From positions 1 to 23,717 of the IMG/VR virus record IMGVR_UViG_3300046003_005304: a DNA stretch of 23,717 bases. One strand, written 5' to 3'. How positions within the stretch are numbered: position 1 is the first letter of the stretch; every line of letters begins with the position of its first letter. The position numbers were made by a program, and so were the translations under genes. This document shows, piece by piece, positions 2,058 through 12,514 of this stretch. Source of the stretch: a virus. The notes beneath the pieces are model-generated. The model saw only the letters and a list, made by a program, of their open reading frames with translations, searched no databases and was not told where the DNA came from.

Positions 2058-2323
2058 TCACGCTTTGAAGAATATTTAAATTATTGATTTATATGAATCC
2101 TGACGCGCATCACGCCACTTTCGCGTTTTTCCATTAGAGGCTATAAACGATGTCAAATGTCAGTATTTACCAGAATGTTTTATATATTTACCTTTAAAGC
2201 GTGAGGAATAGTAGTAAGGTATTGATATAAAAAAGCAATCCGCATCACGCTTTGTTTTTTAAATCACGCTTTGAAGCGTAGGGTATTGATTTATATGAAT
2301 TCAAAATCACGCGCATCACGCCA
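2058..2323. repeat. duplicated iteron-like repeat block; candidate origin or operator array
   Basis: The 517-base gene-free stretch 1963-2479 contains two copies of a composite unit about 206 bases apart (2058-2117 and 2264-2323). Each copy has, in order, TCACGCTTTGAAG (2058-2070, 2264-2276), TATTGATTTATATGAAT (2082-2098, 2284-2300) and CGCGCATCACGCCA (2104-2117, 2310-2323). Further TCACGC cores lie at 2245 and 2307, giving six forward copies, and one inverted AAAGCGTGA is at 2196-2204. TATTGATATAA recurs at 2220-2230. Repeated protein-binding sites with AT-rich DNA beside a primase-helicase gene are typical of phage origins or repressor operators. The role is inferred. Confidence 0.6.
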
Positions 2324-2391
2324 TGAAAAACGCAAAAAGGGCAATGCTTAGAAAGATGACATAGCTAGGTTCTCAGTTTTCAAAAAAAAAG

Positions 2392-2405
2392 TTGACCCTT
2401 GTCAA
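2392..2405. promoter_or_regulatory. small palindrome TTGAC-CCTT-GTCAA, candidate operator
   Basis: A perfect 5-base inverted repeat with a 4-base centre (TTGACCCTTGTCAA), just upstream of the rightward promoter candidate and of the XRE regulator gene. A second symmetrical element, TTATAGTATAA, lies at 2433-2443. Such half-sites are the size expected for an XRE/Cro dimer. No footprint data; inferred from symmetry and position. Confidence 0.4.
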
Positions 2406-2426
2406 TTTACTAGACAAAGTATTTTT

Positions 2427-2454
2427 TTGACATTATAGTATAACAATGTTACAC
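2427..2454 (+). promoter_or_regulatory. candidate rightward early promoter
   Basis: TTGACA at 2427-2432 is a consensus -35. TTACAC at about 2449-2454 sits 16 bases later as a moderate -10. It lies about 26 bases before the ATG of the regulator gene, whose ribosome site AAAGGAGGG is very strong. It would drive the regulator and the replication operon. The symmetrical TTATAGTATAA lies between the two hexamers, where a repressor would block polymerase. Confidence 0.45.
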
Positions 2455-2479
2455 AAAATTGAGAAAGGAGGGAAAATTT

Positions 2480-2650
2480 ATGGAAATGATTAAGAAATTT
2501 AGAGAAAAGCACAATTTGTCACAAGAGAAGCTGGCGCGATTGCTAGATGTGTCAACGGCAAGTGTGTATAACTGGGAAACAGGGCGGCGTTCTGTGCCGT
2601 CTATGTTACACCTTGCGCTTGATACTATTGAAAAAAACTTAGGGAAGTAG
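2480..2650 (+). CDS. XRE-family helix-turn-helix regulator (Cro/CI-like, 56 aa)
   Basis: A minimal helix-turn-helix DNA-binding protein. It starts at ATG 2480 (MEMIKKFREKHNLSQEKLAR), chosen for AAAGGAGGG 8 bases upstream; the frame opens 21 bases earlier but that part covers the ribosome site. The classic XRE pattern is clear: LSQEKLARLLDVS (helix 2 and turn), then TASVYNWETGRRSVPS (recognition helix with the W-E-x-G-R-R ending). It is only one domain long, so it resembles Cro or a small phage regulator rather than a full CI repressor. As first gene of the rightward operon, next to repeats and palindromes, it probably controls both divergent promoters. No partner repressor or integrase is in the window. 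Confidence 0.85.
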   Translation: MEMIKKFREKHNLSQEKLARLLDVSTASVYNWETGRRSVPSMLHLALDTIEKNLGK

Positions 2651-2654
2651 CCTC

Positions 2655-4745
2655 ATGCAAATAGAGGAAGTAAAGAACTCGGTGTTATTATCCGAGGTGG
2701 TTTCGCACGACACAAAACTGGCGAAAAAAGGGCAGGCGTATTTAGGCTTATGCCCTGTACACGCTGAGAAAACGCCGAGCTTTTACGTTTATAATGGAAA
2801 GCATGGTGAGCGGTTTAAATGCCACGGTTGCGGGATAAACGGCGATTTGTTTGATTATTTGCGTGAAACTCGCGGCTTGAGTATTCGTGAGGCAAAGGAG
2901 TATTTGGGCGCGGGTGAAGTTAGTGAAAGAAAAGAGCCACTGATTAAATTGCCTCATATAAATAAATATGAGGGAATTGAGTTATTGTCAAACGCGCCAG
3001 ACATAAATGGTAACACGCTAGAAATCTATAATCCCGACCCTGAAAAGAAGATAAAAAAACCTGTAAAATTTGCACATGCTTTTACGTTTGAACGCGGTAA
3101 GGCGGTGATACGGATTGAAACAGGGACGAAAAAAATCACGCCGATGATATGCTGGACTAATCACGGCTGGACATATTTTCCGTTTCCAGAACCGCGCCCG
3201 TTGTTTGGATTTGATGCCACTGCGCCTTTGGTGATTGTGGTGCAGGGCGAAAAAAAGGCAATGCAGTTAGCGCGTGCGACGGGTGCTTGCGTGGTCTCGG
3301 CGGCGGGTGGTGACAATGCGGTGGAAAAAACTGACTGGACGATTTTAAAAGGCCGTGAGGTGATTATTTGGCCTGATAATGATTTAAGCGGGAAAAAGGC
3401 AGCATCATATGTATCCCAGCAGACGGGCGGCATTATTATGTCTATTCCGCCTGAAAAGCCGAAAGGCTGGGATGCAGGCGACTGGTTAGTGGAAAACCGC
3501 GACGGTGATGCGCTGGCGTTTATTCATGGCAGTTTAAACCGCGTTGCAGAGCGCAGGCAGGATAGCTGGGCGGAGCGGCTGCTATATAAAGATGGTGAGC
3601 TTGACAGGAAAAGCATTAATAACGTGGTGGAGTATTTGTTGCACCACGAGGATTTTAGCGGCGTTTATCGTTATGATGATTTTCACAAGCAGACGATTGT
3701 AATAGGTGATAATGTCCACCCACTTGGCGATACGGATATAACAGAGCTATGCTTGCGTTTGGAGCGTCACGGCCTATGCAGCGAGGCTGGAAAGGTTGCG
3801 GCCTGCATTGAGGTGGTTGCACACCGTACGGCGTTTAATCCCGCGCAGGAATATTTTAACGGGTTGAAATGGGATGGTGTTGCGCGGTTAGATAAATGGT
3901 TATCGTATTATTTGGGCGCGGATGAAGAACCAGCGGAATATTTAGCTGCGATTGGTAAGAAATGGATGGTTGCAGCAGTGAAGCGTGTATTTGAGGCAGG
4001 TTGTAAATTTGACCACATGCTGATTATTGAGGGGAATCAGAATCTAGGGAAATCGACGGCACTTAGAACGCTTGCGACGTTTGGGGAAAAAGAGGAGTGC
4101 TATTTTACCGATTCGCTGAGTATGGAGATGATAACTAGCAAGGATTGTATGCAGTTAACGGCTGGCAGTATTATCGTTGAGCTTGCGGAATTGGTTGGCT
4201 TGCGAAAACGCGACGATGATGAGATTAAGCGCTGGATAACGACGCAGGTAGATAAGGGGCGGCTTCCGTATGCGAGAACTCCAGTGAGTTATCCGCGCTC
4301 GTTTGTTTTAGCGGGTACGACGAATAATTATGATTATCTGAGTGACCCGACTGGCAATAGACGCTTTTGGCCGTTTAAGGCGAAGGCGGTCGATATTGCG
4401 GCATTAAAGGATGACCGTGAGCAGCTTTGGGCGGAGGCGGTTACATTGTATAAAGCGGGTATTTATATAGGGCTTGAACCAGAGGAGCAGGAGCTTGCTG
4501 TTAAGGAACAGATGAAGCGTTTAAATGTTGACCCGTGGGCTGATGATGTAGAGCGTGTTTTGTGTGAATTATCGTTAGAAGGTTTTAGAACGGATCAGGT
4601 GATGAAAGCGATGATGATGTCGATGCGTGATAAGGATGCGATAAGCGAGAAGCGCATTAAGAAAATATTGCAGCAGTTAGGGTATCAGAGCAACACCCGC
4701 TGGAATACGGATAAGCAGAGGAGCGAGCGGGTATGGTTACGCTAA
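2655..4745 (+). CDS. primase-helicase (CHC2 zinc finger, TOPRIM, VirE/D5-type ATPase)
   Basis: A 696-residue replication protein combining primer synthesis and DNA unwinding. Residues 33-59 hold a CHC2 zinc finger (CPVH at 33-36, CHGC at 56-59). A TOPRIM-like domain follows, with VVQGEKKA near 195-202 (acidic E199) and IIWPDND near 237-243. From about 390 onward is a VapE/VirE (D5-like) helicase domain: Walker A GNQNLGKST (460-468), Walker B-like IIVELAEL (506-513), an AGTTNN sensor (553-558) and an arginine-finger-like NRRF (568-571). The ATG has GGGAAG upstream, and the 3' end overlaps the next helicase by 13 bases. No DNA polymerase is in the window, so the phage may use the host enzyme or one encoded elsewhere. 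Confidence 0.9.
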   Translation: MQIEEVKNSVLLSEVVSHDTKLAKKGQAYLGLCPVHAEKTPSFYVYNGKHGERFKCHGCGINGDLFDYLRETRGLSIREAKEYLGAGEVSERKEPLIKLPHINKYEGIELLSNAPDINGNTLEIYNPDPEKKIKKPVKFAHAFTFERGKAVIRIETGTKKITPMICWTNHGWTYFPFPEPRPLFGFDATAPLVIVVQGEKKAMQLARATGACVVSAAGGDNAVEKTDWTILKGREVIIWPDNDLSGKKAASYVSQQTGGIIMSIPPEKPKGWDAGDWLVENRDGDALAFIHGSLNRVAERRQDSWAERLLYKDGELDRKSINNVVEYLLHHEDFSGVYRYDDFHKQTIVIGDNVHPLGDTDITELCLRLERHGLCSEAGKVAACIEVVAHRTAFNPAQEYFNGLKWDGVARLDKWLSYYLGADEEPAEYLAAIGKKWMVAAVKRVFEAGCKFDHMLIIEGNQNLGKSTALRTLATFGEKEECYFTDSLSMEMITSKDCMQLTAGSIIVELAELVGLRKRDDDEIKRWITTQVDKGRLPYARTPVSYPRSFVLAGTTNNYDYLSDPTGNRRFWPFKAKAVDIAALKDDREQLWAEAVTLYKAGIYIGLEPEEQELAVKEQMKRLNVDPWADDVERVLCELSLEGFRTDQVMKAMMMSMRDKDAISEKRIKKILQQLGYQSNTRWNTDKQRSERVWLR

Positions 4746-6130
4746 GGGAAGACCAGCAGGATATTATAGCGCGGGTGAGAGCGAAATTTGCAGAGGGGAA
4801 GCGTTCTGTTTTAATGCAAATGGCAACGGGGGCTGGTAAAACCTACACGGCTGCATTTGTAATGAAGGAGGCGGCAAAAAAAGGAAACCGCACGCTATTT
4901 TTGTGTAACCGCCGAGAGTTGATAGACCAAACGGTAGCAGCTTTTGATAATATAGGCGTGAAAGCGGATGTGATAGCAGCGGGTTTTAAACCTGATTATA
5001 ATAATTTTATTCAGGTAGGTAGCATTGATACAATTCGAGCGCGGCTTGATGATGTAATGTTTTTCCCTGATTTGGTTATTTGGGATGAATGCAGGGCGAT
5101 TGCTTCGCCGTCGTGGGCAATGATACGCGAACACTATGCGCCTGCTTACCACTTAGGGCTTGATGCTACGCCGAAGCGATTAGATAGAAAAGCATTGCGC
5201 CCGTATTTTGAAGATATGGTATGCGGCCTGACAATAGGAGAATTGATAGAGCGCGGCGCATTGGTTCCCCCGAAAGTTTATGCGCCTGCTGTCCGCCCTG
5301 ATATGTCTGGTGTAAAAATACGCGGTGGAGAATATGACGCGGCAGGTGTTGCGGGTGTTATGAGCGCCAGTAGCGTGACTGGTGATATTGTAGCGCATTA
5401 TTTGCGCTTGGCTAATGGCGGGCAGGGAATAGTGTTTTGCCCTACCATTGAATATAGCGAAATGATTGCGGAAGTGTTTACCGAGGCAGGCATACCAGCG
5501 CAGCATTTAGACGGTAACACTACGCGGAAGGTTCGTAAGAAAATTGTAGAGCGATACCGTAACGGCGAAATTAAGCTGCTTACGAATGTTAATTTGTTTA
5601 CTGCGGGTTTTGATGTTCCGAATGTGAGTTATATTGCAGATGCCAGTCCGACGAAATCACTGGCAAATTATATGCAGCGAGCGGGAAGAGGCAGCAGGCC
5701 AGCAGAGGCGAAAACTCACTATATTTTAGCAGACCACGCGGGCAATAGCTTTGAGCATGGCTTGCCGCATGAAGATAGGGAGTGGAGCCTAGACGCGCCG
5801 CCGAAGCGCACGAATAAAGGAATTAGTGTTCAGCCAGTTCGCCAGTGTGAGCATTGTTATGCGGTGTGTAGCATACAGGAAACACATTGCCCATTATGTG
5901 GTAAAGAGTTCCCTATAAAAAAGCGGGAAGTGAAAGAAGTAATTGGAAATTTAGTTGAAGCGGTAAAGGAAGCGAAACTATACGGTGCTGATTTAGATGC
6001 TGCTATTGATGCCTGCAATACAATACAGGATTTTTTAAAAATAGCTAAACGGCAAGGATATAAAGCTGGCTGGGCTTATTATCGTATGAAAGAAAAGGGA
6101 AGCAAATGGCAGTCGAAGAATCCAATGTAA
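4733..6130 (+). CDS. SF2 DEAD/DEAH-box helicase with C-terminal zinc cluster
   Basis: A 465-residue superfamily 2 nucleic-acid translocase. Motif I is ATGAGKT (31-37), motif II is DECR (118-121), motif III is LDAT (143-146), motif V includes TAGFDVPN (290-297) and motif VI is QRAGRGSR (315-322). After the core, cysteines at 372, 375, 386 and 389 (CEHC...CPLC) form a probable zinc ribbon, followed by a helical tail. The family includes RAD25/ComF-like phage helicases used in replication fork restart or recombination. DECR in place of DECH is a variation seen by eye. It overlaps the primase-helicase upstream (13 bases) and the VRR-NUC gene downstream (25 bases), so all three are probably translationally coupled. 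Confidence 0.9.
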   Translation: MVTLREDQQDIIARVRAKFAEGKRSVLMQMATGAGKTYTAAFVMKEAAKKGNRTLFLCNRRELIDQTVAAFDNIGVKADVIAAGFKPDYNNFIQVGSIDTIRARLDDVMFFPDLVIWDECRAIASPSWAMIREHYAPAYHLGLDATPKRLDRKALRPYFEDMVCGLTIGELIERGALVPPKVYAPAVRPDMSGVKIRGGEYDAAGVAGVMSASSVTGDIVAHYLRLANGGQGIVFCPTIEYSEMIAEVFTEAGIPAQHLDGNTTRKVRKKIVERYRNGEIKLLTNVNLFTAGFDVPNVSYIADASPTKSLANYMQRAGRGSRPAEAKTHYILADHAGNSFEHGLPHEDREWSLDAPPKRTNKGISVQPVRQCEHCYAVCSIQETHCPLCGKEFPIKKREVKEVIGNLVEAVKEAKLYGADLDAAIDACNTIQDFLKIAKRQGYKAGWAYYRMKEKGSKWQSKNPM

Positions 6131-6453
6131 CGAATCAGGTGCGACTAGCGGCTAGCAAATTAGGCGTGGTGCTATTCAGAAACAATCGCGGAAAATTTCG
6201 CACGTTAGACGGCAAGCGAATAGTTGAAGCTGGTTTATCTGTAAACGGCAGCAGCGATTTAATCGGCTGGCATAGCGTAGAAGTAACGGCGGATATGATT
6301 GGGAAGCGTGTAGCAATTTTTACGGCGGTGGAAGTAAAAACACCGACAGGCGCAATAAGGCCAGAGCAACAGCGGTTTATAGATAATTTAAATGCAGCGG
6401 GCGGCAAAGGAATTTTTGCACGAAGCGAAAAAGATATTGACGGCTTATTATAA
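6106..6453 (+). CDS. VRR-NUC domain nuclease
   Basis: A 115-residue small nuclease of the VRR-NUC branch of the PD-(D/E)xK superfamily, which in phages resolves branched DNA or works with an adjacent helicase. The signature is clear: GSSDLIGW (49-56, catalytic D51), FTAVEVKTPTGAIRPEQQRF (72-91, with the E-x-K pair E76/K78 and the family Q88-Q89) and a closing AGGKGIFARS. The length is typical of stand-alone phage versions. It overlaps the SF2 helicase by 25 bases, a conserved type of pairing suggesting a helicase-nuclease unit. A short palindromic gap separates it from the exonuclease gene. Confidence 0.88.
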   Translation: MAVEESNVTNQVRLAASKLGVVLFRNNRGKFRTLDGKRIVEAGLSVNGSSDLIGWHSVEVTADMIGKRVAIFTAVEVKTPTGAIRPEQQRFIDNLNAAGGKGIFARSEKDIDGLL

Positions 6454-6457
6454 GTTG

Positions 6458-6478
6458 TTCTATAAATACTTTATAGAA
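6458..6478. promoter_or_regulatory. perfect 9-base inverted repeat before the exonuclease gene
   Basis: TTCTATAAA (6458-6466), TAC, TTTATAGAA (6470-6478) form a perfect palindrome in the only gap inside this operon. It ends where the AAAGGA ribosome site of the exonuclease gene begins. It may be a DNA operator or a weak AU-rich RNA hairpin limiting translation. With no T-tract and low stability it is unlikely to be a terminator. Confidence 0.55.
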
Positions 6479-6489
6479 AGGACGTTTAT

Positions 6490-7161
6490 ATGATTACAGT
6501 TTACGATGATTTATTACAAGGCGGAGATGAATGGCTTGCGGCTCGTTGCGGGTTATTGACTGCTAGCGAAATGAAGCTGATTATTACGCCTAGCAAGATG
6601 CAATTTGCAAATAATGATAAAAGCCGCGCTCATGTGTTTGAGTTGCTCGCCCAGCGTGTGACGCACTATGTGGAGCCGTTTTTTATCAGCGACGATATGC
6701 TTCGCGGAATGGAAGATGAAGCCGTTGCCCGTGATTTATATGCTGGCAAATATGAACCAGTAACGCAGACAGGATTTATTACGCATAAATTTACTGATTT
6801 TACGCTTGGTTATTCGCCAGACGGTTTAGTGGGTGACGATGGTGTGATTGAAATTAAAAGCCGCCGCCAGAAATACCAGATTGAAACGATTGTAAATAAT
6901 GAAGTGCCAGAGGAGTATTTGTTGCAGATTCAGACTGGCTTGCTGGTTTCAGGCCGTAAATGGTGTGATTTTATTAGTTATAGCGCGGGGCTTCCGTTGT
7001 TTGTGAAGCGCGTTATGGCCTGCAATGAAACGCAGGTAAAGATATTAGAAGCGGCGATTGCATTTGAAAAAGCGGTGCAAGAAAAAATGAATTGTTACGC
7101 TGATAATATGGTTAATTTTATAATGACAGAACGTAAAGAAGAAGGAGAATTAGTAATATGA
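6490..7161 (+). CDS. YqaJ-type (lambda exonuclease-like) recombination exonuclease
   Basis: A 223-residue exonuclease of the YqaJ/lambda Exo fold, which chews double-stranded ends 5' to 3' to expose single strands for phage recombination. The N-terminus shows QGGDEWLAARCGLLTAS (10-26). The catalytic block has RGMEDEAV (72-79, E75), GYSPDGL (107-113, D111), IEIKS (120-124, E121/K123) and the YLLQIQTGL helix with Q146/Q148. The start has AAAGGA upstream. It overlaps the next gene by 4 bases (ATGA), tying it to the two proteins that follow, where an annealing protein and SSB normally sit. Confidence 0.88.
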   Translation: MITVYDDLLQGGDEWLAARCGLLTASEMKLIITPSKMQFANNDKSRAHVFELLAQRVTHYVEPFFISDDMLRGMEDEAVARDLYAGKYEPVTQTGFITHKFTDFTLGYSPDGLVGDDGVIEIKSRRQKYQIETIVNNEVPEEYLLQIQTGLLVSGRKWCDFISYSAGLPLFVKRVMACNETQVKILEAAIAFEKAVQEKMNCYADNMVNFIMTERKEEGELVI

Positions 7162-7775
7162 GTGAAGTAAATATTGCGGCAGCTTGTGCGCCGAAAAGCG
7201 ACCAGTTAAACGCGGATGATTTAATTAACACTACGAAAACGGTAAAAATCACGGCAGTAAAAGCTGGTAATGCAGAGCAAAAAATCGTGGTGCATTATGA
7301 TGGTGATAATGGCAAGCCGTGGAAGCCGTGTAAATCGATGATTCGCGTCATGCGTACTTTATGGGGTGATACCGCTGCAACGTGGTGCAATCATAGCGTT
7401 ACGCTTTATAATGACCCCGAAGTGCAATATGGTGGCGTAAAAGTTGGCGGGATTCGTATCAGTCACGCTACTGGTATTGAGCAGGCTGTTATGCTTGCAT
7501 TGACGGCGAAAAAAGGCCAGCGCAAGCCGTATCAGGTGAAGCCTTTGGTTATTGCAGCAGTGGTTGACGATACCGCTAAAAAACTAGCAGCAGCAACAAC
7601 GAAAAAAACTAAAATTGTTGCAGAAATTGCAGCTTGTGAAACGCAAGAAGCAGTGATTGCGGTATTAGATAGAGAGGCAGGTGCAATGGATAGGTTCGCC
7701 GCTGATTATCCCGCTTTAGGAAAAGAAGTAAACGAAGCAGTATCAATCAAACAAGGAGAATTGAGCAATGGGTAA
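7158..7775 (+). CDS. recombination-module protein of unknown function (205 aa)
   Basis: This protein sits between the exonuclease and the SSB-like gene, the slot usually held by a single-strand annealing protein. Residues about 25-130 form a compact beta-rich domain with VKITAVKAG, VVHYDGDNGKPWKPCKSMIR (44-63), SVTLYNDPEVQYGGVKVGGI (80-99) and a basic KKGQRKPYQVKPL (118-130). I recall similar domains as uncharacterised proteins beside YqaJ genes in other phages, but know no assigned function. The rest is an Ala/Lys-rich helical tail. It does not show recognisable RecT, Erf, Sak or Redbeta motifs. An annealing or OB-fold-like DNA-binding role is an inference from position. Confidence 0.75.
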   Translation: MSEVNIAAACAPKSDQLNADDLINTTKTVKITAVKAGNAEQKIVVHYDGDNGKPWKPCKSMIRVMRTLWGDTAATWCNHSVTLYNDPEVQYGGVKVGGIRISHATGIEQAVMLALTAKKGQRKPYQVKPLVIAAVVDDTAKKLAAATTKKTKIVAEIAACETQEAVIAVLDREAGAMDRFAADYPALGKEVNEAVSIKQGELSNG

Positions 7776-8055
7776 AAAATACGATTTAGCAGTAAAAGTT
7801 GGAAGTTATACCGATAATAACGGCAACACGAAAAACCGTTATAAAAATATTGGTGCTTTGATGACTGGCAACGATGGCGGTGAGTATATTTTGCTGGAAA
7901 AAACATTTAATCCCGCTGGTGTAACGTCCGACCGTGAAAGCATTATGATTAGTCTTTTTGGGCCACGCGATAATAATAATCAGACCGCGCATAATGAGGC
8001 TAAACAGGATGGTTACGCGCCACAGCCTGACACTGACGATACTATTCCATTTTAA
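7768..8055 (+). CDS. single-stranded DNA-binding-like protein (95 aa)
   Basis: A 95-residue protein with a short beta-rich domain (KYDLAVKVGSYTDNNGNTKN, then YKNIGALM, EYILLEKTFNPAG and SIMISLF) and a disordered Asn/Gln-rich linker ending DTDDTIPF. The acidic tail with a final Pro-Phe is the hallmark of SSB proteins, where it docks replication and recombination partners. The domain is shorter than E. coli SSB (178 residues overall) and fits the small phage SSB-like type. ATG 7768 overlaps the gene upstream by 8 bases with AAGGAG just before it. It is the last gene of the operon, followed by a terminator. Confidence 0.75.
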   Translation: MGKKYDLAVKVGSYTDNNGNTKNRYKNIGALMTGNDGGEYILLEKTFNPAGVTSDRESIMISLFGPRDNNNQTAHNEAKQDGYAPQPDTDDTIPF

Positions 8056-8062
8056 GTAAATC

Positions 8063-8095
8063 GGGCGGGGTTGATAGCCTCGCCCTTTTTTTATT
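8063..8095 (+). terminator. rho-independent terminator of the replication operon
   Basis: GGGCGGGG (8063-8070), loop TTGATAG, CCTCGCCC (8078-8085), then a T run. The stem is 8 bases with one mismatch and lies directly after the SSB-like gene. It separates replication/recombination genes from the NAD+ genes. Confidence 0.85.
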
Positions 8096-8103
8096 AAAAA
8101 AAC

Positions 8104-8133
8104 CCTATTGACTACATAGCGAATTGCTATACA
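8104..8133 (+). promoter_or_regulatory. promoter-like element before the NAD+ genes
   Basis: CCTATTGACT (8104-8113) and CTATACA (8127-8133), with TGC directly before TATACA as in an extended -10. The gap between TTGACT and TATACA is 14 bases, short for a sigma-70 promoter. The same arrangement, with 19 bases between the first T of TTGACT and the C of CTATA, recurs at 10798. It also contains an inverted repeat ATAGC-GAATT-GCTAT (8116-8130). It lies just after a terminator and before a new gene pair, as a promoter should. Confidence 0.55.
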
Positions 8134-8151
8134 GTGGGGGGAGAAATGGGG

Positions 8152-8946
8152 ATGAGTATGATTTACTTAAATAAAGATTTAGTCAAAACATCGCAATTTA
8201 GCGGCGGAGAGAGAAATGTTGTAGTTGATACAATAAAGGTTTCAACATCTACCGCAAACGAATGCACTGCGTTTTTGCTTGATGCGAATTGTATTATGGA
8301 TTTACTTTTGACTGAGAATGCGAACGGGGGGATTTACGATCTAACTATCCCTTATTTTCCTTATGCACGGCAGGACAGGGTGTGCAATGACGGGGAGGCG
8401 TTTAGCCTTAAGGTAATGGCTAATTTGATTAATTCCCTTGGCTGCGACTATGTAACAGTATTTAACCCGCACAGCGATGTATTGCCTGGGCTTATAAATA
8501 GTTGTGTGGTCGTTCAAGCATGGCAACTATGCGAAGGTGTGCCATTTCACAAATATGATTTTATAATTTCGCCAGATGCGGGCGCTGAAAAAAAGACAAT
8601 TAAAATATCACAGCGTTACGATATTCCCATGCTATGCGCCTACAAAACTAGAAACCCTAAAACTATGGAAATCACAAAAACATGGGTGGATGATTCGGAA
8701 GATTTGCAAGGTAAAAGCGTCATTATCGCAGATGATATATGTGACGGAGGAAGAACATTCATAGAGCTTGCGAAGGTGCTGCGCGAAAGGGGGGCTGGCG
8801 ATGTGTCGCTTTACGTCACTCACGGCATATTTTCGCGTGGTATTGATAATCTGAAAGGCGCAATCGATACGGTTTACTACAACAACTCCCTAAACCAAGA
8901 CGGAACAGGCAACCCATACACTTTAATTACAAAGGAGCTATCATGA
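8152..8946 (+). CDS. Prs-like ribose-phosphate pyrophosphokinase; probable ADPR-PP synthetase (Adps) of NARP1
   Basis: A 264-residue PRPP-synthetase-fold protein. Canonical Prs moves pyrophosphate from ATP to ribose-5-phosphate; the NARP1 homologue acts on ADP-ribose. Visible motifs are IPYFPYARQDR (66-76, with the ATP-side R73/Q74/D75), FNPHSDV (104-110), ISPDAGAEKK (139-148) and the phosphate-binding loop IIADDICDGGRTF (191-203). At 264 residues it is shorter than bacterial Prs (about 315), as phage versions are. ATG 8152 is chosen because GGGGGGAG precedes it by 8 bases; GTG 8134 would put the ribosome site inside the gene. The stop overlaps the NAMPT-like start (ATGA). Sequence alone cannot prove ADP-ribose over ribose-5-phosphate as substrate. 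Confidence 0.87.
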   Translation: MSMIYLNKDLVKTSQFSGGERNVVVDTIKVSTSTANECTAFLLDANCIMDLLLTENANGGIYDLTIPYFPYARQDRVCNDGEAFSLKVMANLINSLGCDYVTVFNPHSDVLPGLINSCVVVQAWQLCEGVPFHKYDFIISPDAGAEKKTIKISQRYDIPMLCAYKTRNPKTMEITKTWVDDSEDLQGKSVIIADDICDGGRTFIELAKVLRERGAGDVSLYVTHGIFSRGIDNLKGAIDTVYYNNSLNQDGTGNPYTLITKELS

Positions 8947-10409
8947 AAATCAACCCATTAACCGCTATCGATTTTTACAAAGCAGGACACCGCCAGCAAT
9001 ATCCAGTTGGCACTAATCTGGTCTATTCCAACTTTACAGCGCGGAGCGATAAACTTAGTAATTTACCAGAGGGAGTGCGGCCAGAGGGTGTTACGTTTTT
9101 TGGATTACAATATTTTATTAAGAGCTTTTTAATTGAGGCGTTTGACATTGAATTTTTTAGCCAACCGAAAGAAAAGGTGGTAGCGGCGTATAAGCGGCGT
9201 ATGGATACCTCACTTGGCAAAAATGCAATCCCTGTTGACCACATTGAGGCGTTGCATGATTTAGGTTATCTCCCCATTGAGATTCGCGCATTGCCAGAAG
9301 GGGAAGAGGTTCCAATTAAGGTTCCTATGCTTATTATTTTTAATACTCACCCTGATTTTTTCTGGCTAACAAATTACCTTGAATCTGTAATGTCTAGCTA
9401 TTTGTGGAAGCCCACCACTTCAGCGACTACGGCAAGGGCTTACCGCAAGATTCTTGATCATTATGCGAAAAAAACAGGAACGGCAGCAGAGTTTGTGCAA
9501 TTTCAAGGACACGATTTTTCTTTCCGAGGAATGAGTAACCCAGAGGATGCTGCGCTGTCTGGTGCGGGGCATTTGTTATCTTTTGTTGGGACTGACTCAG
9601 TGCTAGCTATTGACCTTTTAGAGCAATATTACGGAGCGGATGCTGAGAAAGAACTTGTTGGTTGCAGCGTTCCTGCAACAGAACACAGCGTTATGTGTAT
9701 GGGGAGTAAGGAGTCAGAAATTGATACTTTCCGCCGACTTATTAATGAAGTTTATCCATCTGGTATTGTTTCTATTGTTTCAGATACATGGGATTTCTGG
9801 CGCGTGGTGACTGAATATGTTGCTACATTAAAATCCGATATTCTGGCGCGTAATGGTAAGGTGGTTATTCGTCCTGATAGCGGCGACCCTGTTAAAATTA
9901 TTTGCGGGGATGAGGAAAGCCGATATTTGCCAGCATTTAAGGGGGCGGTAGAATGCCTATGGGATATTTTTGGCGGAACTATTACCGAAACAGGCCATAA
10001 ACTGTTGGATTCGCATATAGGGCTGATTTATGGTGATTCTATTACTCCGCAACGCGCTATTGCAATACTTGAAGGGCTAGAAAGCAAGGGTTTTGCTTCG
10101 GGTAATGTGGTATTTGGTATCGGTTCATTCACTTATCAATATGTCACCCGTGATACCTACGGTTTTGCAGTAAAATCAACCTACGGCGAAATTAATGGAG
10201 AGCCTAGGGAGATATTTAAAGACCCCATCACGGATAACGGCGTAAAGAAATCCGCTGTTGGGTTGATTTCTGTCCTAAAGGATAGCGAGGGAAATTATTG
10301 CCTGCATGACAAGCAGGAAAATATCGCGGATAGCGGAGAGCTTTTAACTGTATTCCGCAACGGTTCACTTGTGAGGGAAACAACTTTGTCAGAAATTCGC
10401 ACCCGCTAA
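8943..10409 (+). CDS. NAMPT-like nicotinamide phosphoribosyltransferase; probable Namat of NARP1
   Basis: A 488-residue protein that aligns by eye along the length of human NAMPT (491 residues). Matches include NPLTAIDFYKAGHRQQYP (4-21), DFSFRGMSNPEDA (191-203), SFVGTDSV (213-220, D218), VPATEHSVM (243-251, H248 at the phospho-His position), SDTWDFW (280-286) and VVIRPDSGDP (307-316, R310 and D312). In NARP1 the homologue Namat joins nicotinamide to ADPR-pyrophosphate to give NAD+ directly; NAMPT proper joins it to PRPP to give NMN. The start overlaps the Prs-like gene by 4 bases with AAAGGAG upstream, so the two enzymes are co-made. No NMN adenylyltransferase is in the window, which fits the two-enzyme pathway but is not decisive. 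Confidence 0.92.
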   Translation: MKINPLTAIDFYKAGHRQQYPVGTNLVYSNFTARSDKLSNLPEGVRPEGVTFFGLQYFIKSFLIEAFDIEFFSQPKEKVVAAYKRRMDTSLGKNAIPVDHIEALHDLGYLPIEIRALPEGEEVPIKVPMLIIFNTHPDFFWLTNYLESVMSSYLWKPTTSATTARAYRKILDHYAKKTGTAAEFVQFQGHDFSFRGMSNPEDAALSGAGHLLSFVGTDSVLAIDLLEQYYGADAEKELVGCSVPATEHSVMCMGSKESEIDTFRRLINEVYPSGIVSIVSDTWDFWRVVTEYVATLKSDILARNGKVVIRPDSGDPVKIICGDEESRYLPAFKGAVECLWDIFGGTITETGHKLLDSHIGLIYGDSITPQRAIAILEGLESKGFASGNVVFGIGSFTYQYVTRDTYGFAVKSTYGEINGEPREIFKDPITDNGVKKSAVGLISVLKDSEGNYCLHDKQENIADSGELLTVFRNGSLVRETTLSEIRTR

Positions 10410-11688: not shown

Positions 11689-12069
11689 ATGACCATCCCA
11701 CTCACCAAACTAATTGCAGAAAATAAGGAAAGGCCGATAGCGGAAGCCAGCCGAAAAACCAATTCGCGTTTTTTGTTAAAAATAGATACTTGCTGGGTTG
11801 TGGGGTTTTGGAACGGCTTTTCATGGGAAGGTGAAGACGATGGATTATTGTTATATCCCACCCACTTCCGCCCACTGCCAGATGATAGGCTTGCTTTTGT
11901 GGCTGAACACTACCGCGCAGGTGTTGACGCGTTTATATCTATGTTCGAGCCATTGGCTGAAAAGAGCGGCATTTACGGCGCGGCTCTTGAGTTCGCTCAG
12001 GGTTTGCAAAAACAAGCAGAAGCAATAGCAGAGGGGAAAGACAAAACCGATGAGGCACACAATGGATAA
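11689..12069 (+). CDS. hypothetical protein (126 aa)
   Basis: A 126-residue soluble protein beginning MTIPLTKLIAENKERPIAEA. The first half is beta-like and aromatic (CWVVGFWNGFSWEGEDDGLL). The second is helical (PDDRLAFVAEHYRAGVDAFI, then AQGLQKQAEAIAEGKDKTDE). There is no signal peptide or cysteine motif. The ribosome site is weak (GCGAG). The stop overlaps the start of the Lar-like gene. The family is not recognised. Confidence 0.6.
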   Translation: MTIPLTKLIAENKERPIAEASRKTNSRFLLKIDTCWVVGFWNGFSWEGEDDGLLLYPTHFRPLPDDRLAFVAEHYRAGVDAFISMFEPLAEKSGIYGAALEFAQGLQKQAEAIAEGKDKTDEAHNG

Positions 12070-12514
12070 GCAGGTAGAACTTTTACCGTGCCCTTTTTGT
12101 AATGCGAAAGCATATAAATCTGAGTTTGGCTCAGATACTCATAGAAGGCCTTCTGATAATGCGCACCTTTTTGTTATTAAATGCGGCATGTGCTGCGCTG
12201 AAATTCGGCGTTTTGGTGATAAACTCGCTATCGCTGCATGGAACCAACGCACAACACCCACCCCACCAGCAGGGCAGTTTGATACCTCAAAATACATTAA
12301 GCTAAGTTGGAACCAGCAAGAAGAAATAAAGACGGGAAAATTTACTGTGCGTAAGCAAAATTTACCAGCAGGACAGGTAGAGGCGGTAGCTAGGGCATTA
12401 GCAGCCGCAGACCCACTATCAGGATTTGCTATTTGCCATGAAGGAAAAGAGGCGTGGCATTATAAAATTAAACAGGCAGAAGCCGCCATAACCAAAATAT
12501 TGGAGGTAATATGA
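12062..12514 (+). CDS. Lar-like zinc-ribbon protein (restriction alleviation family), 150 aa
   Basis: The N-terminal 63 residues follow the Lar_restr_allev pattern: LLPCPFCNAKAY (C10, C13), then VIKCGMCCAEIRR (C41, C44) and KLAIAAWNQR (54-63), the A-x-x-x-W-N-x-R ending typical of the family. Lar of the Rac prophage modulates EcoKI restriction-modification; many phage members carry the name without test. A helical extension of about 85 residues follows (VEAVARALAAADPLSGF and a C-terminal helix), longer than Lar itself. ATG 12062 is chosen for GAGG 6 bases upstream; an ATG 12 bases earlier lacks one. It overlaps both neighbours. An anti-restriction role is plausible but unproven. Confidence 0.72.
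   Translation: MDKQVELLPCPFCNAKAYKSEFGSDTHRRPSDNAHLFVIKCGMCCAEIRRFGDKLAIAAWNQRTTPTPPAGQFDTSKYIKLSWNQQEEIKTGKFTVRKQNLPAGQVEAVARALAAADPLSGFAICHEGKEAWHYKIKQAEAAITKILEVI

Follow-up and report, generated by a model that had tools for sequence, protein, structure and literature searches.

The analysed stretch of DNA, hereafter the window, is the whole 23,717-base record of an uncultured virus. No near-identical DNA was found among 50,697 records of isolated phages, the tail and primase proteins of the window have only distant relatives among isolates, and an Rfam scan of the window gave zero matches. The plus strand carries a block of replication and recombination genes coding for a small repressor-like helix-turn-helix (HTH) protein, a primase-helicase, a ResIII helicase, a VRR nuclease, a YqaJ exonuclease, and an ssb-like protein (named from gene position and size, as its PHROG matches are without function), and the lysis and tail genes are encoded on the minus strand. 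Two direct repeats of 61 nt with 70% identity (2057–2117 and 2263–2323), flanked by inverted arms, are placed in a non-coding stretch that separates divergent gene blocks and is a possible origin or control region. Between the plus-strand replication block and the minus-strand lysis and tail genes lie two further plus-strand genes, which code for a kinase of the ADP-ribose pyrophosphate synthetase type (Adps; 8152–8946) and a nicotinamide ADP-ribose transferase of the Namat type (8943–10409).

The first-pass annotation had described a Prs-fold kinase and a NAMPT-fold transferase overlapping by four bases, and the open reading frames, the shared ATGA, and the Pfam assignments all agree with this description. 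Candidate starts of the kinase gene, whose stop codon ends at 8946, are GTG 8134 and ATG 8152; the latter, located 8 nt after GGGGGGAG, is the best start and yields the protein of 264 amino acids on which that annotation was based. The transferase (488 amino acids) starts at 8943, so that the ATGA is common to the kinase stop and the transferase start, and AAGGAG precedes this start. The location of both genes on the same strand, their adjacency, and their overlap correspond to the layout of one operon. The kinase matches PHROG family phrog_619 (E = 1.6e-77) and the Pfam families Pribosyltran, Pribosyl_synth, and Pribosyltran_N above cut-off, and the transferase matches phrog_448 (E = 1.2e-196) and, likewise above cut-off, NAPRTase and NAMPT_N. 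The family assignments are thereby secure, and similarity to solved Namat and Prs structures fixes both folds.

A Rho-independent terminator follows the ssb-like gene on the plus strand (8063–8095) and consists of a stem (8063–8085) with 10 G + C-rich pairs and a subsequent T7 tract. This feature, already reported by the first-pass annotation, is corroborated by a fold z-score of -3.5 relative to shuffled sequences and by a terminator of the same form, with a different sequence, at the equivalent place in a related phage. The claim that the pair also has its own promoter fared less well: a putative promoter-like element (TTGACT-16-TACAGT, 8108–8135, plus strand) has 9 of 12 matches, but the 9 such sites found in this 3.5-kb region are indistinguishable from the 7.9 expected by chance from shuffles. 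An imperfect palindrome, ATAGCGAATTGCTAT (8116–8130), which can be extended to ACTACATAGC-GAATT-GCTATACAGT (8111–8135; 8 of 10 arm positions), overlaps the promoter-like element and, given its location before the kinase gene, could be an operator. The 15-bp palindrome occurs only once in exact form in the window, and at 0–1 mismatch it is absent from the related phage; the 23 sites found at up to two mismatches, compared with 13.9 expected, make an unconvincing operator set, and a function as repressor operator is at most tentative.

The structure of the Namat of the Bacillus phage SPbetaL1 has been solved, and the features that separate Namat from NAMPT have been defined (PMC12774641). According to these rules, the selectivity-clamp helix of Namat reads GSX-phi-X-phi-X-phi-TRD with aromatic residues at positions 3 and 7, and a clamp loop stacks on the adenine, its third residue being Arg, or Lys or Tyr followed by a stacking residue (PMC12774641). 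The transferase of the window contains the helix motif GSFTYQYVTRD (residues 394–404; 10122–10154, plus strand), which matches the published motif exactly, and lacks the GG[AG]LLQ sequence of the NAMPT-type clamp-helix region, which is GGALLQK in the mammalian and Xanthomonas enzymes and GGGLLQQ in KVP40 NadV, and reads GSFTYQ here. Residues S193, S395, F396, Y400, and T402 are all in the Namat state, and the two serines among them that correspond to the phosphate-touching serines of Namat (S193 and S395) are replaced by Gly in all four NAMPTs compared. D10, Y12, F192, R195, D218, A245, R310, D312, and D365 are identical to SPbetaL1 Namat, with D218, R310, and D312 aligning with D215, R306, and D308 of that protein, and H248 is present. 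The earlier statement that the catalytic positions of both proteins (D218, H248, R310, D312, and the kinase loop DDICDGGRT) are intact was thus borne out.

Among solved structures, SPbetaL1 Namat (9W5X/9W5W) is the best match of the transferase with 568 bits, compared with 238–241 bits for the mammalian and Xanthomonas NAMPTs. In a tree of 73 transferases, seven NAMPTs are located on one side of a branch with 100% support, and the window protein, SPbetaL1 Namat, and NrsB of the Vibrio phage ICP1 on the opposite side; within its part of the tree the window protein groups with four other viral contigs (L002, L006, L008, and L009; 99%). PDB entry 9ke8, a solved “NAMPT”, also groups with Namat in this tree, yet reads GAQTYQRNTRD and is without both clamp aromatics, so that it offers a natural case for testing the clamp rule.

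The clamp loop of the transferase is the one feature that deviates from the published stacking rule, because K37, an allowed third residue, is followed by L38 and Leu is a poor adenine stacker. The specificity of the enzyme might therefore be relaxed or dual. We consider this unlikely, since the clamp helix is intact and single clamp mutations in SPbetaL1 Namat lower NAD+ formation only 1.3–1.7-fold (PMC12774641).

The kinase carries the loop DDICDGGRT (8731–8757, plus strand) in place of the loop DDMIDTGGT of Escherichia coli Prs, and the pattern DDxxDTxGT is accordingly absent from it. In Prs, this loop binds the 5′-phosphate of ribose-5-phosphate, and the change would sit where the extra AMP of ADP-ribose must exit the pocket. 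The motifs FNPHSDV, PDAGAEKK, and GGRT, which the first-pass annotation had described as variant, are of the kind present in known or probable Adps, and PHSDV, PDAGA-K, KxRNxxTxEI, and a GGxTF-like motif are common to the kinase and the characterised Adps of SPbetaL1, whereas E. coli Prs reads DLHAEQ, PDIGGVVR, and DTGGT at the equivalent motifs. In a tree of 48 kinases, the window protein groups with characterised Adps across a 99% branch from the housekeeping Prs of E. coli, Mycobacterium tuberculosis, and Burkholderia (n = 3, two of them partial sequences). Its identity to any relative found is at most about 48%. Unlike the transferase, the kinase does not group with the proteins of L002, L006, L008, and L009, but an AU test does not reject a single clade (p = 0.076), and swapping of partners between kinase and transferase is therefore not claimed.

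Several known systems resemble the pair closely enough for direct comparison. The NARP1 system of SPbetaL1 (Adps–Namat; 9W5X, 9W5W; PMC12774641) has the same gene order, kinase then transferase; its Namat is about 55% identical to the window transferase and alike in the clamp-helix motif and the nicotinamide and ribose contacts, and its Adps motifs EPHSDV, PDAGAAKR, and KQRNFHTGEI match those of the window kinase. Differences concern the kinase loop (DDICDGGRT in the window, DDLSSFGGT in SPbetaL1), the clamp loop, which is longer in the window and has K37-L38 where SPbetaL1 has R40, and the carrier, which is a 134-kb SPbeta-like phage in the one case and probably a small phage in the other. 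The transferase of the nrsAB system of ICP1 (PMC11559045) is 54% identical to that of the window and shares its clamp-helix motif and a Lys in the clamp loop, and the ICP1 kinase is likewise of the DDICDG subtype. ICP1 differs from the window by being a 126-kb virulent phage, by the kinase loop DDICDGAAS, and by the lack of overlap between the two genes. The prs-nadV genes of phage Felix O1 code for an identical kinase loop (DDICDGGRT), the motifs PDAGA-KK and KxRNxxTGEI, and the clamp helix GSYTYQYMTRD, but nadV is longer (1,782 bp) and an HNH gene is inserted between nadV and the kinase gene; the Namat of Bas63, a phage of the same genus as Felix O1, is treated in PMC12774641. In 69 of 80 viral loci with relatives of the window transferase the kinase gene is located directly upstream. 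A NARP1 pair of a mycobacteriophage forms NAD+ by using ADP-ribose that is liberated from immune signals. The PRPP-type NAMPTs (human, Xanthomonas XC_0719, and KVP40 NadV) agree with the transferase in fold and in the catalytic residues for nicotinamide and ribose, but have the GG(A/G)LLQ clamp-helix region, Gly in place of S193 and S395, and, in phages, usually a neighbouring NMN adenylyltransferase (NMNAT) gene.

This comparison bears on the main alternative reading, canonical NMN salvage, in which the kinase would convert ribose-5-phosphate to PRPP, the transferase would form NMN, and completion of NAD+ would fall to an adenylyltransferase of the host. The Prs and NAMPT folds of the two proteins are compatible with such a route, as is the NMN-forming activity that Namat retains in vitro: it makes NMN from PRPP at approximately half the rate of human NAMPT (PMC12774641), so that use of PRPP is conceivable on sequence grounds. 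Nevertheless, we regard canonical salvage as highly improbable, because both proteins are separated from Prs and NAMPT with 99–100% support, the clamp motif of the transferase is of the Namat type, and the loop DT-GT for the 5′-phosphate of ribose-5-phosphate is replaced by DGGRT in the kinase. Furthermore, NMNAT genes adjoin the NAMPT gene in three of the four phages with PRPP-type NAMPT, none of which has an Adps-type kinase there, while none was recognised in the window, a 23.7-kb fragment, although KVP40 also lacks one beside nadV. The first-pass annotation had left the choice between ADP-ribose and ribose-5-phosphate open and had named clustering with ribose-5-phosphate-specific Prs and PRPP-specific NAMPT as the observation that would speak against a NARP1 assignment; the pair falls instead with Adps and Namat, and clamp motif, kinase motifs, and trees favour ADP-ribose. 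Judged from these sequence features, the pair is very probably a NARP1 module active on ADP-ribose, and as such adds a good example to this known pathway and does not constitute a new system.

The backbone genes of the window (primase-helicase, helicase, VRR nuclease, YqaJ exonuclease, and ssb-like; 2135–8029, plus strand) share 79% nucleotide identity with the related phage, which is known from two records (L179 and L180) that are identical across their overlap. This similarity, which extends over 5.9 kb, ends at the end of the ssb-like gene and thereby marks the left edge of a variable region, where the relative has unrelated small genes at the position of the pair. No transferase was found in the 36-kb record of the relative, which is partial and leaves absence from the phage itself unproven. 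Since the similarity ends at ssb and the record of the relative lacks the pair, the genes look like accessory cargo, and we consider it very likely that they are a NARP1 module carried as such. The view of the pair as a self-contained cassette can be retained insofar as the record of a close relative is without it at the same point, but its own promoter is putative. Downstream of the pair, within the variable region of the window, lies a gene with weak similarity to Lar-like restriction alleviation genes (12050–12514, plus strand; PHROG 599, E = 2.4e-6; Pfam Lar just below cut-off), and the region may thus be a small anti-defence region.

In the related phage, portal and terminase genes flank the replication block on its left side, which suggests an estimated genome size near 40–50 kb for the window phage once the missing head genes are added. 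The carrier therefore is probably a small phage, which would be mildly unusual: NadV-like genes have been reported in about 2% of small phages versus 22–33% of larger ones (PMC9503650), and almost all of 60 isolate records sampled at regular intervals along the ranking were at least 75 kb in size, with 74.9 kb as the smallest. A single further small carrier was identified: a podovirus of 42.6 kb (MW202524.1), in which the two genes likewise overlap and directly follow a lambda-repressor-like HTH gene.

The nearest non-viral relatives of the pair are bacterial chromosomal pairs found in Alphaproteobacteria (including Micavibrio), Verrucomicrobiota, Cyanobacteriota, Acinetobacter, and Bacteroidota. 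Their transferases are 61–68% identical to that of the window, contain the Namat motif, and are nearer to it than those of any characterised phage NARP1, and their kinases are of the DDICDGG subtype; one bacterial pair, from Paenibacillus, has been reported to be active (PMC12774641). A gene for NrtR, a regulator consisting of a Nudix domain and a winged helix, was present in the fetched flanks of 73 of 80 bacterial loci (L086–L165; for example L120:6507–7313, L097:6718–7476, and L112:4299–4988) versus none of 80 viral loci, as determined with a profile built from five NrtR proteins of these bacterial loci that were all confirmed by Pfam. Many of the 80 bacterial loci are from Acinetobacter, and the loci are thus not independent. 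According to the part of PMC9503650 that cites Huang (2009) and Rodionov (2008), NrtR senses ADP-ribose; PMC12774641 makes no mention of NrtR. The NrtR linkage of the nearest bacterial relatives is mildly unusual and suggests that the linked pairs are ADP-ribose-regulated salvage operons of the NARP1 type that are annotated as prs-nadV. About as likely as not, the window pair belongs to a lineage that is common to phages and bacterial chromosomes, with the bacterial pairs as NrtR-linked salvage operons of NARP1 chemistry that would be induced by the ADP-ribose on which they act, and with phages carrying the enzymes without the sensor.

The best INPHARED match lies on a contig named “Acinetobacter phage MD-2021a” (CAKLQF020000015.1). 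A gene next to this match, annotated as “bifunctional NMN adenylyltransferase/ADPR pyrophosphatase”, was considered as evidence for the PRPP route in close relatives and dropped, as it matches the NrtR profile (E = 8e-119), and its counterpart in Acinetobacter pittii (L120) is a regulator with Nudix and NrtR winged-helix domains. Based on this profile match the contig is probably bacterial and the gene misnamed; the genes around the match are bacterial-looking as well (an AraC regulator, TauE/SafE, and methylenetetrahydrofolate reductase).

The presence of NrtR, a regulator of NAD homeostasis, in 73 of the 80 chromosomal loci makes a housekeeping role of this chemistry probable, and the phage pair might accordingly be auxiliary metabolic cargo whose NARP1 chemistry increases the turnover of NAD+ for replication and does not primarily serve counter-defence. 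This appears quite unlikely to us. During infection, ICP1 nrsAB raises NAD+; it is required to overcome the SIR2-HerA system Nezha and confers a fitness cost where SIR2-HerA defence is absent (PMC11559045). The lack of the pair in the record of the close relative is as expected for a defence-dependent trait, and the weak Lar-like anti-restriction gene is located within the same variable region.

With the pair as a NARP1 module, a host defence effector (TIR, SIR2, or SEFIR) would split NAD+ into nicotinamide and ADP-ribose. The two genes, expressed from a start point that may lie behind the ssb terminator, would then provide a kinase that transfers pyrophosphate from ATP to ADP-ribose, yielding ADPR-PP, and a transferase that joins ADPR-PP and nicotinamide directly to NAD+ without an NMN adenylyltransferase. 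The rebuilt NAD+ would make phage replication possible.

The published Namat rules thus go far towards settling the substrate from sequence in a case where the labels “prs” and “nadV” leave the question open. The analysis places the NARP1 pathway in a probably small phage, a group in which NadV-like genes are rare, and points to the pair as cargo, carried by this phage but not contained in a close relative's record. Beyond the phages, the bacterial gene neighbourhoods suggest that many chromosomal genes regarded as coding for “PRPP-type NAMPT” code for enzymes that recycle ADP-ribose and are linked to a sensor of this compound.
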